Assembly: GCA_014879575.1 (NCBI GenBank)
Contig: JACSRU010000174.1
Span: 1 to 33,391, forward strand
From: Chthoniobacterales bacterium
Lineage (GTDB): Bacteria > Verrucomicrobiota > Verrucomicrobiia > Chthoniobacterales > Terrimicrobiaceae
DNA length: 33,391 nt
Reading direction: 5' to 3'
This document shows positions 14,341 through 19,253 of this stretch, one piece after another. The notes under the pieces were generated by a model, which did not search any database, was not told where the DNA came from, and worked only from the letters and a program-made list of their open reading frames with translations. How positions within the stretch are numbered: position 1 is the stretch's first letter; every line of letters starts with the position of its first letter. The position numbers were made by a program, and so were the translations under genes.

Positions 14341-14844
14341 AGGACATCATTCTGAAAAGAGATTGTGGCATATTGGCAGATGGTATCGCGGCCCTTCAGG
14401 CCGCAGAATTCTCTCCGCCCATAACCCAGGCCGTTGGCCTGGGCTATGGGATGATGCGCCTTTGGCGCAGTCGAAATGGCCAGGCCCCGGCAACGGTTTG
14501 GAAAACCCGTTCCTGGAGTTTGGACATTTTTGGGATGATGCCAAAGGCATCTGAGCTTCGGCAGTCGGGGGTTGCGCGAAGCGACACCCCCAGTTCTCCA
14601 CACGGAAAAAGGCCCGATCCCAAATGGGATCGCAGCCCCGCTCAATCCAGATATTTTGCCTCGCATACGATGCTTGCCAGTTTCAACTCCTGGCTGGCAC
14701 CCCATCCGGGGTGCTGAGTTTTTTTGGATTCCATCCCAGGGGTGTCGCTTCGCGCAACCCCTGGCTTCTGAAGTTGAACACACCTCCGGCGTGAAAAAAA
14801 TGTCCATACTTCAGCAACGGGTTGGAAACCCGTTCTACATACGC
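14341..14844. repeat. Cluster of short palindromic repeats
   Basis: About 500 bases without a gene, made largely of hairpins. They are 14418-14450 (15-base arms, one mismatch, loop GTT), 14455-14469 (TGCGCC/GGCGCA), 14537-14551 (GATGCC/GGCATC) and 14615-14632 (CGATCCCA/TGGGATCG). Others are 14697-14714 (GCACCCC/GGGGTGC followed by seven T) and 14816-14834 (AACGGGTT/AACCCGTT). The last has a diverged copy at 14491-14512. Bases 14568-14590 and 14739-14761 form a perfect 23-base inverted pair 148 bases apart. The composition resembles REP-like interspersed palindromes of Verrucomicrobiota and Planctomycetota genomes. Confidence 0.75.
14697..14723 (+). terminator. Hairpin with T-run resembling an intrinsic terminator
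   Basis: GCACCCC, loop ATCC, GGGGTGC (14697-14714), followed by TGAG and a run of T. The shape fits a rho-independent terminator on the plus strand. No plus-strand gene ends just upstream, so it may only be one of the palindromic repeats of this region. Confidence 0.35.
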
Positions 14845-15193
14845 TCAGCTCCGCCGACGGCGGAGCAGGAGGGTCGCGGCGAGGCCCGACACTGCGAGAA
14901 GCACGGTGGATGGCTCGGGAATCACGACCACCTGGAGACCCGTGCCCTGGAAATACGCTTCCTTGCCCCCGCCGATGCTGGCCTTGTTGAGGAGGCCGAA
15001 GTTCGAGACGTTGGCGTAGCTGCCGAAGTTTGCCGTTCCGTTGATGAGCGTGTAGGTTCCGGCGGCGACCGAGCCATCCAAGCCGATGACATTGGTGAGC
15101 GAGAAGCCGCCGAAGGTCACACTGGTTCCATTGACGGTGAGAGTGGAGGTGAGGCTGAACACAAAGTCCGCCCCTGCCGTCAGGCTCAGGCTG
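14845..15193 (-). pseudogene. PEP-CTERM sorted surface protein, C-terminal remnant
   Basis: About 116 codons of the C-terminal end of a PEP-CTERM protein. The sorting tail is textbook: IPEPSTVLL, a hydrophobic helix (AVSGLAATLLL) and a terminal RRRRS. The upstream part (ADFVFSLTSTLTVNGTSVTF, then GLDGSVAAGTYTLINGTANF) looks like the last beta-rich repeats of a secreted autotransporter-like or adhesin-like protein. In Gram-negative bacteria such proteins are processed by an exosortase at the inner membrane and exported to the surface or exopolysaccharide. The frame runs into the left end of the IS at 15194. On the far side of the IS I find no continuation of the gene, so its N-terminal part has been lost. 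Confidence 0.85.
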
Positions 15194-16126
15194 CCCAATA
15201 CTGTTAACGTAACACTTTACTCGATCGTTATTCTGTGCTCGGATCGGGCACATGCTGCGTCCAGCCAAAACCTTGTCCGTGGGGTGATCTTCCGGGCCGA
15301 ACTGGGCCGATACAAAGATTCGGAGATCGTTCTGGCGGAGAAAGTCGTCTGCGGGCTGCGCAAGGGCATGCTGTGTCTGGCCGACCGGCTCTTCCCCGGT
15401 CTGGCGTTGTGGAAAAAGCCACCGCCTCCGGAGCGCATGTGCTTTGGCGTGCGAAGGTCAGCATGAAGCTCAAAGTCGACAAAGTGTTGCCTGACGGTTC
15501 CTGGCTGGCCACATGGAAATCTGCCACGCGAGGACAGAAAGATGAGCGGGGAGTGAGCGTGCGGGTCATCGAATACCGGCTCAAAGGCGGCAACGGGGAA
15601 ACCTTCCGCCTGATCACCAGTCTGCTTGACCACGAGACAGCTCCCGCCCGGGAACTAGCTGCGCTTTACCCGCAGTGCTGGGAAATTGAGTTGGCTATCA
15701 AGGAAGGCAAGCACGTGCTCAGATCCGGCCAAATCACCCTGCGCAGCAAAATGCCCGAGTTGGTGCGACAGAAATTCTGGGGCGTGCTCCTGGCTCATTA
15801 CATTGTGCGCAAGATGATGGCCCGAGCAGCACTGGACGGAGACGTTGCCCCCGACGTTCTCAGCTATCAGAGCAGCGTGGAAATCATTCGCAGTAGCCAG
15901 ACTGGACCAGTTCTGGCCTTTTTCCCCCCTCAGCAAAGAGTGAGTCAACAGGAGGCGTTGCTCAAAGAGATCGGACGGCAAAAAGTCTCCAGCAGTCGCG
16001 GCAAGTCCAAAGAACGGAGCATCAAGGCAAAACCGCGACAAAAATTTGCTCCGCGACCGTTGGGGTCAAAAGTCAGAGTGAAGAGCGTCCTGAATGAAGT
16101 TGAAGTGTTAAGTTAACAGTATTGGG
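15194..16126 (+). mobile_element. Internally deleted IS4-family insertion sequence
   Basis: A 933-bp element. The left end 15194-15217 and the right end 16103-16126 are inverted repeats of 24 bases with one mismatch (CCCAATACTGTTAAC then g/t then TAACACTT); the match continues three bases outward on both sides. The flanks CAGGCTG (15187-15193) and CAGGATG (16127-16133) agree at six of seven positions and may be an eroded target duplication. The inside carries only the second half of a DDE transposase, so about 0.5 kb seems to be missing compared with a typical IS4-type element. Confidence 0.88.
15250..16116 (+). pseudogene. IS4-family transposase remnant (N-terminal half missing, frameshifted)
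   Basis: The remaining coding piece starts mid-domain (VRGVIFRAELGRYKDSEIVLAEK) and reaches GMLCLADRLFPGLALWKK with the second catalytic aspartate. It then jumps to another frame for ATASGAHVLWRAKVSMKLK and runs to the stop at 16116. The frame change lies at a run of five A (15413-15417, TGGAAAAAGCC); a -1 slip there restores the reading exactly. The YREK region reads YPQCWEIELAIKEGK, so the family arginine has become cysteine. The first aspartate of the DDE triad is in the deleted part. The protein cannot be an active transposase, though the ends could still be moved by a complete copy elsewhere. Confidence 0.85.
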
Positions 16127-16228
16127 CAGGATGCCCACGCTCCTTTGGTTGCACAAAACGGAGATGCGCCCGTCAGGAGGAAACCCGCCGTGTGGACAGG
16201 CGTCAACCTCTGTGATATGGTCGCCCAT

Positions 16229-16477
16229 ATGAAAACAACCATAAATATTGCCGACCCGCTCTTTCAAAAGGTCAGGCACATCGCGGGACAGGAAAACTCC
16301 ACGTTTCGGGCCTTGGTTGAGGAAGGTCTGCGCTGGGTTGTGGAGAAGAACAAACGCAAAGGAACCCCCTTCCGTCTGGGCAACCTCAAGACGCGGGGGG
16401 GGGGGCTTGCGGAAAAGTTTCGAGAGGGCCGTTGGGAACAAATTCGCGACGAGATTTATCAGGATCACGGAGCATGA
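16229..16477 (+). CDS. VapB-like antitoxin with an 11-G tract
   Basis: An 82-residue protein that starts MKTTINIADPLFQKVRHIAG, the pattern of small type II antitoxins with an N-terminal DNA-binding domain and a C-terminal toxin-binding tail. I set the start at the ATG at 16229; the open frame reaches further upstream without similarity. Codons 56-59 lie in a run of eleven G (16395-16405), read as RGGG. Gain or loss of one G would truncate or garble the C-terminal third, which should bind the toxin. The stop overlaps the toxin start (ATGA), the usual arrangement. The pair should repress its own promoter, which would lie in the 100 bases after the IS. Confidence 0.8.
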   Translation: MKTTINIADPLFQKVRHIAGQENSTFRALVEEGLRWVVEKNKRKGTPFRLGNLKTRGGGLAEKFREGRWEQIRDEIYQDHGA

Positions 16478-16911
16478 TTGCCGTGGACACCAACATTTTG
16501 GTCTATGCCCACCGGGAGGAGTTTCCTTTTCATTCCCAGGCCAGGAAGAAGGTGATTGCCTTGGCGGAGTCTTCCGCATTTTGGGCCATCCCGTGGCCCT
16601 GTGTGCATGAATTTCTGGCCATCTGCACCAATGCGCGGATCTTCAAGGAACCCACGGAGGCGGCGGAGGCTCTTGATTTTCTGGAAACCCTTGCATCGAG
16701 TCCCTCCCTGCTTTACCTCTCGGAGACCGAAGACCATTTGCAAATTCTGGGGAAAATTGTGAAGGAAAGTCGTGTCCAGGGCGGGCGGATTCATGACGCC
16801 CGCATCGCAGCGATTTGCTTGGGAAATGCCGTCTCGGAACTTTGGACGGCCGACAGGGATTTTTCCAGCTTCCGGCATTTGGTCGCCCGAAATCCCCTCC
16901 TTTTCCCGTAG
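16474..16911 (+). CDS. PIN-domain ribonuclease toxin (VapC family)
   Basis: A 145-residue PIN-domain nuclease, the toxin partner of the gene just upstream. Acidic residues at the expected places are D5 (MIAVDTNILVY), E46 (CVHEFLAI), D108 (IHDARIAAIC) and D127/D129 (LWTADRDF), which would hold the Mg ions. VapC toxins cut RNA, often tRNA-fMet or ribosomal RNA, and are held inactive by VapB. The ATG at 16474 overlaps the antitoxin stop by four bases, so translation is coupled. All catalytic residues are present and the gene appears intact. It sits between an IS remnant and a converging methyltransferase gene, a typical accessory location. Confidence 0.9.
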   Translation: MIAVDTNILVYAHREEFPFHSQARKKVIALAESSAFWAIPWPCVHEFLAICTNARIFKEPTEAAEALDFLETLASSPSLLYLSETEDHLQILGKIVKESRVQGGRIHDARIAAICLGNAVSELWTADRDFSSFRHLVARNPLLFP

Positions 16912-16947: not shown

Positions 16948-17721
16948 TTATTCTCCCTTGCTGCGGCAAAAGAGGGCGTTGAAGACTCCGTTCGTCGGAT
17001 GGGTCAGAGGGTTGGGAACACGCTGGAATCCCAGTTCCTCGAAGATCGCCTGCACGGGTTCCTCGGTCTTGCCGGATTCGATCTCGATCATGGCCTGACG
17101 TAGCGAGGCATGCGCCAGCACGTCCCGAAGGCCCTCGACAGCCCGGACCTCCAAGCCATCAATGTCCAGCTTTAACAACGTGGGACGGGGCAGGCCAAGG
17201 AGTTGCGGCAGATCGCCTCCCTTGAGGCAGAGAATGCCCTGGCGGATTTGTCCGCCCGCTTCGCCCACCTGATGGCCCGCTGACCCGGCGCGTGTGTCCT
17301 TCACTGCCATCTCCTCCGGCGCGGTGTGGTCCAGAAGCCCCGCATTCACCGGAAAGACCTGTTCGCTCACCCCGTTGAGCGCGATGTTGTCCCAAAGATG
17401 GGCGAAGGTCGGGATGAAAGGTTCGAAGGCGAACACCTTCGCCCGGGGACACAGCTTTGCCGCCAAAATAGAATACGCGCCGACATTGGCTCCCACATCC
17501 CAGAGGACATCGCCGGGTTTCAACTCCCGCTTTAGCCAGTCCACCATGTCCGGCTCGCCCACATAGCTCCCCTGGGCGCGATTATTGTGTTCATACCAGG
17601 TGTGAACCACGAAATCCACCGACACATCCGTTCCGGGAACGGGTGCGGTTTTGATCAAGGGCGGTTGCTCGAGCCGGGATTCGAGCCATTTGCGTTTGAG
17701 GAAGCCGCGAAGGGAGGGCAT
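16948..17721 (-). CDS. FkbM-family SAM-dependent methyltransferase
   Basis: A 257-residue O-methyltransferase. The SAM-binding motif DVGANVGAYS is at 75-84, followed by the acidic FEP after strand 2 (99-101) and the FkbM-typical LLKLDIDGLEVRAVEG (about 183-198). Family members methylate hydroxyls of polyketides and of sugars in surface polysaccharides. The ATG at 17719-17721 lies four bases after the kdsB-like stop, so the genes are almost certainly one transcript. The context suggests methylation of a surface glycan or of the sugar acid handled by the two upstream genes; this is inference. Confidence 0.85.
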   Translation of the reverse strand: MPSLRGFLKRKWLESRLEQPPLIKTAPVPGTDVSVDFVVHTWYEHNNRAQGSYVGEPDMVDWLKRELKPGDVLWDVGANVGAYSILAAKLCPRAKVFAFEPFIPTFAHLWDNIALNGVSEQVFPVNAGLLDHTAPEEMAVKDTRAGSAGHQVGEAGGQIRQGILCLKGGDLPQLLGLPRPTLLKLDIDGLEVRAVEGLRDVLAHASLRQAMIEIESGKTEEPVQAIFEELGFQRVPNPLTHPTNGVFNALFCRSKGE

Positions 17722-17725
17722 AAAT

Positions 17726-18475
17726 TCAGAAGATCTGGTTGAACAGCGGGTCTTTGGCCATTTCCCGTTCCGCCTCGGCCCGGTCGCCCTCGGTGTCCAC
17801 GCTGAGGCCGGTGGCCTCGCAGGGAACCATGCGCACCTTGAAGCCGTGTTCGATGGCCCTCATCATGTCCACGGACTCCCGGATTTCCAGCGGGGTCGGT
17901 TCGAGCCGGGAAAACTGGTGGAGAAACCGGTTCGTGAAGGGGATCACGCACACCTGCTTCCAGGCGTGGTCGAAGGTGCCGCCTTTTTTGAGGCTCGGGA
18001 TGGGCTCGCGGGACATGTAAAGCGCGTCGCGGTTCCGATCAAAAACCACCTTGACCTCGTTGGGATCCTCCAGGGTTTCCAAGTCGGTGATGCGGGCCAT
18101 CAGGTTGGTGCAAACGAGCGCGGCATCCTCCAGCATCGGTGCCACGGCAAGGTCAATCATTTCCGGTGTCACAAAAGGTTCGTCCCCCTGCACATTGACG
18201 ATGATGTCCCCGCCCACGACATCCGCCGCCTCTTCAATGCGGTCGGTGCACCGTTCGTGCTTGTCGGAGGTCATTACGGCCCGTCCCCCGCAGCGGGTCA
18301 CCTCGTCGGCAATCACCTGGTCGCAGGTGGCCACCACGACCTCGGAGAGCGATTTGGCCAGGCTGACCCGGCGGAGAACATGTTCGATCATCGTGTGACC
18401 ACAGATTTTTGCGAGGGGTTTCCCGGGGAACCGGGAGGAGCCCATGCGGGCGGGAATGATGGCGGTAATTTTCAT
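17726..18475 (-). CDS. kdsB: CMP-Kdo synthetase-like cytidylyltransferase (KdsB family variant)
   Basis: Nucleotidyltransferase that activates a 3-deoxy-2-keto sugar acid with CTP, normally Kdo for LPS. It has 249 residues. The N-terminal signature IIPARMGSSRFPGKPLA (6-22) binds CTP and NVQGDEP (94-100) supplies the metal-binding aspartate. SVDTEGD near the C-terminus matches the usual VDTPED. Two features differ from canonical KdsB: HERCTDR (73-79) replaces the common SGT-E/D-R, and the substrate region EPTPLEIRESVDMMRAIEHG is diverged. It may be an ordinary KdsB of a divergent phylum or a paralogue for a related sugar acid. It lies seven bases downstream of the aldolase gene and four bases upstream of the FkbM gene. 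Confidence 0.82.
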   Translation of the reverse strand: MKITAIIPARMGSSRFPGKPLAKICGHTMIEHVLRRVSLAKSLSEVVVATCDQVIADEVTRCGGRAVMTSDKHERCTDRIEEAADVVGGDIIVNVQGDEPFVTPEMIDLAVAPMLEDAALVCTNLMARITDLETLEDPNEVKVVFDRNRDALYMSREPIPSLKKGGTFDHAWKQVCVIPFTNRFLHQFSRLEPTPLEIRESVDMMRAIEHGFKVRMVPCEATGLSVDTEGDRAEAEREMAKDPLFNQIF

Positions 18476-18482
18476 AAAAAAA

Positions 18483-19253
18483 TCAGAGGTTCCGCGTCAC
18501 GGCACCCAGGGTTTTCTTCGCATGGTTGAGAAGAAAAAGGTAGTCAATTCCGAAGGCGATGAAGCGAAAACCTTCCGCCAACCTGGCCTGGGCGTCCGAT
18601 GGCACGGGCTGCACCACATGGATGCCGGGCACCGTCGGGACAAGGGTCTGAACCCGTTTCACCTCAGACATGGCCTCCTGCATTTTCGGGTGCTGGAAAT
18701 CCCCCGGGATCCCCAGCGAGGCGGAAAGATCGTAGGGCCCGATGAAAAAGCCGTCCACACCCGGCGTCCGCAAAATCGCCTCGAGTTGGCCCACCGCGTC
18801 AATGTGCTCGATCTGCACAAAGACGATGCTCTCCTCGTTCAGCCAGCGATAGTGGACATCGAATTCCTCGGCATACCCCTGGGCCCGGGAAAGCCCGACG
18901 CCGCGCGTGCCGTGCGGCGGGTATTTCGCCGCCGCCACGATGGCGGCGGCCTGCTCCGGCGTGTTGACGGTCGAGGCGATCACGCCATGCGCACCCGCAT
19001 CCATCACCCGTTTGATGACATTCGCATCATGGCTGCCCACGCGCACGAAGGGCCTGGCACCGGCAAGGTCAATCGTGCGAATCAACTCCGCGGTGCTCTC
19101 CAGGCCAATGGGACTGTGTTCGAGGTCCACCGTGACCCACTCGAACCCCGCACGCACCATCAATTCGGCGACAGCAGGCTGCGGGAGGGTGAGCCAGGTG
19201 CCGAAGCTCGGTCGGGAAAGAAGACTGGCTTTCGAGGGACGATTCAAGCGCAT
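18483..19253 (-). CDS. HpcH/HpaI-family aldolase
   Basis: Class II pyruvate-dependent aldolase of 256 residues. Such enzymes cleave or form 2-keto-3-deoxy acids such as 4-hydroxy-2-ketoheptanedioate or 2-keto-3-deoxy-rhamnonate. The catalytic-type histidine is in VDLEHSP (42-48) and R71 follows in FVRVGSHD. The metal ligands are E149 in VQIEHIDAV and D175 in GVDGFFIGPYDLSASLG. I chose the ATG at 19251-19253 because family similarity begins just after it. The open frame continues to 19466, but through the NNGGC repeat array, giving a nonsense N-terminus. It is the first gene of a three-gene leftward cluster with the cytidylyltransferase and methyltransferase. The promoter should lie in the adjoining island edge. 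Confidence 0.87.
   Translation of the reverse strand: MRLNRPSKASLLSRPSFGTWLTLPQPAVAELMVRAGFEWVTVDLEHSPIGLESTAELIRTIDLAGARPFVRVGSHDANVIKRVMDAGAHGVIASTVNTPEQAAAIVAAAKYPPHGTRGVGLSRAQGYAEEFDVHYRWLNEESIVFVQIEHIDAVGQLEAILRTPGVDGFFIGPYDLSASLGIPGDFQHPKMQEAMSEVKRVQTLVPTVPGIHVVQPVPSDAQARLAEGFRFIAFGIDYLFLLNHAKKTLGAVTRNL

Follow-up and report, generated by a model that had tools for sequence, protein, structure and literature searches.

The window, that is, the whole stretch of 33,391 nucleotides that was analysed (contig JACSRU010000174.1 of the Chthoniobacterales genome assembly GCA_014879575.1), carries three closely packed genes on its minus strand, in the order aldolase, KdsB-like cytidylyltransferase and FkbM methyltransferase:

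18483-19253, minus strand: HpcH/HpaI-family class II aldolase (256 amino acids, ATG at 19253; PF03328)
17726-18475, minus strand: KdsB-like CMP-ulosonate cytidylyltransferase of the PRK13368 subfamily (249 amino acids; PF02348)
16948-17721, minus strand: FkbM-family methyltransferase (257 amino acids; PF05050, TIGR01444)

A sequence-only reading had described the trio at this place, with seven and four bases between the genes; this was confirmed, the gaps being exactly 7 bases between the aldolase and the KdsB-like gene and 4 bases between the latter and the FkbM gene. A longer aldolase frame, up to 19466, is present and is without support. All three frames are intact, and in GC, GC3 and codon use they resemble the window's housekeeping genes. 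Pfam and NCBIfam agree with the family calls made earlier: the aldolase matched PF03328 with 108.5 bits (cut-off 25; E 4e-31) and the KdsB-like protein PF02348 with 151.9 bits, while the methyltransferase exceeded the cut-offs of TIGR01444 (69.0 vs 37.7 bits) and PF05050 (34.0 vs 22.7 bits). The trio is adjoined by an IS-like element (15191-16129), with a DDE_Tnp_1 transposase frame at 15235-16116 and 27-nt terminal inverted repeats at 15191-15217 and 16103-16129 (96% complementary), and by a VapB-like antitoxin gene (16217-16477) and a PIN-domain toxin gene (16474-16911), both on the plus strand and convergent with the FkbM gene.

The assembly of the window's genome (3.6 Mb, 178 contigs, 97.7% complete) encodes three PF02348 proteins. 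The best match is a canonical kdsB on contig C158, which adjoins genes for a GmhB-like phosphatase and an HldE-like carbohydrate kinase and has a gene for an MlaE-like permease downstream (names by inspection), and the third is an SpsF-like protein clustered with a NeuB-like gene on contig C113 (again named by inspection). A kdsA was found on contig C112 (361 bits vs a cut-off of 314) and a waaA on contig C141. Thus the canonical kdsB and kdsA on which the earlier proposal turned both exist, together with waaA, on contigs other than that of the trio, and a reading of the KdsB-like gene as the sole kdsB of this genome is rejected. The region around the SpsF-like and NeuB-like genes (C113, 85000-104000) appears, by inspection of its genes, to be a further acidic-sugar cluster.

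When the aldolase alignment was scanned against 84,980 species genomes, 80 loci were retrieved, most of them from metagenome assemblies, and a cytidylyltransferase was present in 63 of these (45 KdsB-like and 18 NeuA-like by nearest match), two different families filling the one slot beside the aldolase. The paired genes were on the same strand in 62 of the 63 loci, with fewer than 150 bases between them in 37 and less than 1.5 kb in 49, and the carriers span 15 named phyla. By comparison, not one of 28 further HpaI homologues, taken from related genomes, had a cytidylyltransferase within 1.5 kb. The conservation across genomes shows that the association of the aldolase with the cytidylyltransferase is beyond chance, and it speaks for the earlier proposal, which a separate placement of the aldolase in relatives would have countered. 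No kdsA homologue was found in the retrieved aldolase loci. We also searched ten carrier genomes from Chloroflexota, Actinomycetota, Bacillota and Woesearchaeota, phyla mostly without LPS, and found neither a kdsA above cut-off nor a waaA in these mostly metagenome assemblies, whose completeness is uncertain and which may be incomplete or mixed. Six of the ten showed weak matches to the kdsA profile (115-133 bits; cut-off 314), which we take as putative related PEP-dependent synthases.

The aldolase falls well below the NCBIfam equivalog cut-offs of HpaI (167.5 vs 368.8 bits), GarL (150.4 vs 406.75 bits) and RhmA (133.3 vs 441 bits). In the alignment it keeps the active-site residues R71 and H46 and the metal ligands E149 and D175, and it carries the clade-typical residues Y174, H150, H212, Q125, F131 and L121. 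Its AlphaFold2 model (pLDDT 94.0) is nearest to solved folds of the HpaI/GarL/SwHKA family, including the hydroxypyruvate-binding SwHKA. In a quick tree of 115 sequences, supported by SH-aLRT values only, the window aldolase belongs to a clade of 62 rows (SH-aLRT 98), in 60 of which the gene has a cytidylyltransferase partner; the two unlinked members are L122, whose locus stops at a contig end, and L112, which is not at a contig end. Five more linked aldolases form a neighbouring group outside this clade, and E. coli GarL and RhmA and Klebsiella HpaI also lie outside it. The linkage label changed 4 times on the tree, against 37.6 times with shuffled labels. The aldolase shares with the catabolic HpaI, GarL, RhmA and SwHKA the fold, the metal ligands, the pyruvate-binding arginine and the base, whereas it differs from them in its separate clade, its clade-typical residues and its biosynthetic context. 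No relative was found in the viral sequence collection. We propose that the enzyme condenses pyruvate or hydroxypyruvate with a polyhydroxy-aldehyde to give a 2-ulosonic acid. HpcH aldolases take hydroxypyruvate and polyhydroxy-aldehydes such as erythrose in vitro (PMC7610986), and SwHKA is likewise a hydroxypyruvate-accepting HpcH aldolase (PMC10099721).

The KdsB-like protein lies just below the kdsB equivalog TIGR00466 (148.1 vs 155.2 bits) and above the cut-off of the PRK13368/NF009905 subfamily model (310 vs 255 bits), which is named only as 3-deoxy-manno-octulosonate cytidylyltransferase. Its AlphaFold2 model (pLDDT 94.5) has CMP-Kdo synthetases as nearest solved folds, the first being KpsU (1h7e; 36% identity, TM 0.92). 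The lysine K19, which is catalytic in KdsB, and the metal aspartates D98 and D227 (E. coli numbering; PMC3149649) are invariant in the aldolase-linked KdsB-like clade. In a second quick tree, again with SH-aLRT as the only support (83 sequences), the 46 proteins with a linked aldolase, together with 3 of a related second type, were separated with a value of 100 from 34 canonical KdsB proteins, among them E. coli KdsB and a KpsU. Five residues that are invariant in the canonical proteins, H181, Y185, Y187, E210 and Q211 of E. coli, are replaced by Q, I, F, D and M in the aldolase-linked proteins (Q174, I178, F180, D203 and M204 in the window protein), and the Q, D and M replacements at H181, E210 and Q211 occur in 46 of 46 linked rows. 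We assume that the changed positions themselves contact the Kdo sugar. They are located in the C-terminal domain of KdsB, which has been assigned to Kdo binding (PMC3149649). The second-type proteins, which occur in some of the clusters (L064 10585-11358, L116 18858-19583 and L117 17172-17903), form a clade of their own with support 100, and at the H181 position have W in L064 and E in L117.

Furthermore, partners of the pair were identified by de novo clustering of neighbouring ORFs in 82 loci. A PGDH-like 2-hydroxyacid dehydrogenase was found in 63 of them, a Gfo/Idh protein in 32, a SAM methyltransferase in 31, a HAD phosphatase in 28 and a GmhA-type SIS isomerase in 22; the HAD, SIS and methyltransferase clusters occurred only in cytidylyltransferase-carrying loci, and PGDH-like genes were also noticed beside 7 of the 28 control HpaI homologues. 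The loci are rich in glycan biosynthesis genes, namely transferases, flippases, aminotransferases and NeuB. We take the NeuB homologues, which are present in only 16 loci, as putative separate cassettes, and the NeuA-like alternates resemble sialic and pseudaminic acid enzymes. Two subtypes of gene order could be distinguished. In subtype A, the aldolase and cytidylyltransferase are followed by PGDH, SDR, in some cases a cyclase-family protein, and HAD, whereas subtype B has the aldolase, cytidylyltransferase, methyltransferase, Gfo/Idh, SIS and PGDH, with IMPase or with an SDR plus an AroB-related cyclase. As the two differ in their tailoring genes, more than one product is suggested. Such an SDR paired with a TIGR04425 AroB-related protein was seen in the type B loci L083 (12771-14592), L099, L100, L107, L119, L127 and L133. 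TIGR04425, an AroB-related putative sugar phosphate phospholyase, is a hypothetical model with no pathway assigned, exceeded by the L083 member (440 vs 400 bits) and absent from the window trio.

In contrast to the pair, FkbM cluster members were present in only 7 of the 82 loci, the closest being from Verrucomicrobial relatives, and FkbM is therefore not a core component. The gene adjoins the KdsB-like gene also in G010, a genome of the same family and another genus, and, divergently oriented, in the Verrucomicrobial locus L074. We suggest that FkbM might be an accessory enzyme that O-methylates the product or the glycan that carries it.

Among 96 relatives, close copies were found only in G010, whose aldolase and KdsB-like protein are 83% and 89% identical to those of the window; each is on a contig of its own. 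Contigs C13 and C265 of that assembly share short repeat matches only, consistent with a break in repeats. The KdsB-like and FkbM genes of G010 face a 2-hydroxyacid dehydrogenase gene and a HAD phosphatase gene, and homologues of both were located elsewhere in the window's genome, on contig C51:

38950-39888 of C51, minus strand: PGDH-like dehydrogenase (68% identical to the G010 copy)
37453-38115 of C51, minus strand: HAD phosphatase (64% identical to the G010 copy)

Between them sits a PF13578 methyltransferase gene, a homologue of which adjoins the KdsB-like gene of L074. With the PGDH-like, methyltransferase and HAD genes on C51, the cassette of the window's genome is split into two three-gene pieces. 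The trio is thus not the whole of the proposed pathway, its partner genes for the dehydrogenase and the phosphatase being at another place in the genome. No orthologue of the type A SDR epimerase was found in this genome (best match 33%), and none of the genes beside the trio was recognised as a dedicated glycosyltransferase. Acuticoccus sp. I52.16.1 carries a more distant relative on a plasmid: this aldolase is 42% identical to that of the window, and the genes after it encode an acylneuraminate-type cytidylyltransferase, a phosphoglycerate dehydrogenase, a HAD hydrolase and an NAD(P)-dependent oxidoreductase.

We consider it likely that the trio belongs to a pathway whose genes are dispersed and whose product is a CMP-activated 2-ulosonic (Kdo-like) acid other than the Kdo of LPS. 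The earlier proposal that aldolase and KdsB-like enzyme together could make and CMP-activate such an acid is supported at the level of sequence by the separate kdsB, kdsA and waaA and by the conservation of the pair; the third part of the same proposal, methylation by FkbM, found weak support and would concern a non-core step. The reactions, the sugar and its location at the surface, as we infer them, would be as follows. An HpaI-type metal aldolase, and not a PEP-dependent synthase of the KdsA/NeuB type, would join a 2-oxo-acid donor to a polyhydroxy-aldehyde by aldol addition of the 2-oxo-acid enolate; the KdsB-like cytidylyltransferase (NeuA-like in other taxa) would convert the product to a CMP-sugar, which would then be transferred to a cell-surface glycan, and FkbM may add an O-methyl group. 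The frequency of the PGDH-like enzyme in the loci suggests that hydroxypyruvate could be the donor, in which case the PGDH-like and HAD enzymes would supply it from 3-phosphoglycerate and an oxygen would be retained at C3 of the ulosonate. This idea is weakened by the PGDH-like genes beside 7 of the 28 control HpaI loci, and we hold it to be possible, if doubtful. Alternatively, the HAD enzyme may, like KdsC, dephosphorylate the product of the aldol reaction. That a widespread aldolase route with a hydroxypyruvate donor yields C3-hydroxylated ulosonic acids, free of any PEP-dependent synthase, in bacteria and archaea that lack LPS is a wider and somewhat less likely proposition.

It may be argued that the pathway is real and its product a known sugar acid, such as Kdo, Kdn, Ko or 3-deoxy-heptulosaric acid, reached by a different route. 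The cytidylyltransferase fold is indeed close to those of the CMP-Kdo synthetases (KpsU, 1h7e), the NeuA-like alternates are near the sialic and pseudaminic acid enzymes, and HpcH aldolases can reach polyhydroxy ulosonates (PMC7610986); however, the canonical-invariant KdsB positions are altered throughout the linked clade, and the different tailoring genes of the two subtypes suggest more than one product. We therefore regard a known product as a tenable minority reading. A distinctly improbable alternative is that an acquired glycan cluster is decaying in this genome and the trio is what is left of it, with the pathway split and no product made. Its intact frames, housekeeping-like codon use and conserved catalytic residues, and the intact PGDH-methyltransferase-HAD group on C51, speak against decay, although no aldolase relative was found in three genomes of the same genus, the IS-like element and the VapBC pair adjoin the trio and the type A SDR is missing. 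Since a capsule-specific second copy of CMP-Kdo synthetase, KpsU, is known in E. coli (PMC3149649) and KpsU is the nearest solved structure, the KdsB-like protein might also be such an enzyme, with the aldolase an unrelated catabolic neighbour by chance. But KpsU groups with canonical KdsB, apart from the window protein, and retains the canonical residues, while the pair is kept across 15 phyla in loci without kdsA; a KpsU-like origin is rejected by the cytidylyltransferase tree, and this explanation is largely refuted and very unlikely. Least likely of all is a salvage scheme that includes the cytidylyltransferase and in which the aldolase cleaves a ulosonic acid. The catabolic nature of HpaI, GarL and RhmA and the reversibility of aldolases would fit it, yet genes for glycan biosynthesis abound in the loci and CMP-activation is a biosynthetic step.

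The gene set is thus real, conserved and apparently undescribed; it is probably a variant of CMP-ulosonate biosynthesis, best read as a route that leads to CMP-activated 2-ulosonic acids without KdsA or NeuB. To our knowledge, all CMP-activated 2-ulosonic acids known so far (Kdo, sialic, legionaminic and pseudaminic acids) come from PEP-dependent synthases. Like the canonical Kdo pathway (KdsD-KdsA-KdsC-KdsB), the cassette has a KdsB-fold cytidylyltransferase as its last enzyme and includes a HAD phosphatase, to which the type B clusters add an SIS isomerase. It differs in that KdsA is absent and the C-C bond is apparently formed by the HpaI-type aldolase, in that the KdsB-like enzyme has its own clade and altered invariant positions, and in that its carriers include genomes without recognised kdsA and waaA; a KdsA-dependent Kdo operon is likewise unlike the trio's cluster, which has no kdsA, that of the window's genome being on another contig. 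The NeuB/LegI/PseI plus NeuA/LegF/PseF pathways resemble it in giving a CMP-activated acidic sugar and in the NeuA-like enzyme of some cassette clusters, but in the cassette the aldolase would replace the PEP-dependent synthase of these nonulosonic acid pathways. No published account of the gene set, its parts or the AroB-related family was found in the open-access literature searched, subscription journals being mostly outside it. If the pathway is true, it would provide a new building block for microbial surface sugars, and the conservation of the pair in 15 named phyla, some without LPS, would suggest that many environmental microbes bear charged sugars that have so far gone unrecognised. 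Annotation pipelines may mislabel the cassette enzymes as belonging to Kdo synthesis (KdsB) or aromatic catabolism (HpaI). The analysis also yields a short list of assayable enzymes and culturable carriers; relatives of the window's aldolase and KdsB-like enzyme occur in the isolates Kiloniella laminariae DSM 19542 and Sediminibacterium roseum, and the NeuA-like variant in Croceivirga thetidis.

A few minor observations may be added. A family of proteins of 500-600 amino acids (e.g. L089 18945-20723), with members in up to 28 loci, occurs in the cytidylyltransferase clusters; it has no significant Pfam match, and with sub-threshold Pfam hints of a glycosyltransferase it looks like a transferase. 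In the window, a 35-nt inverted repeat (14556-14590 and 14739-14773, 89% complementary, 148 nt apart) lies beside a frame with a PEP-CTERM-like tail, as judged by inspection (14845-15198). In G010 (loci L064 and L065), short sequences related to one another are repeated between the genes and again at either end of the contigs, so that several frames end in similar peptides (e.g. ...QGAGGKE).
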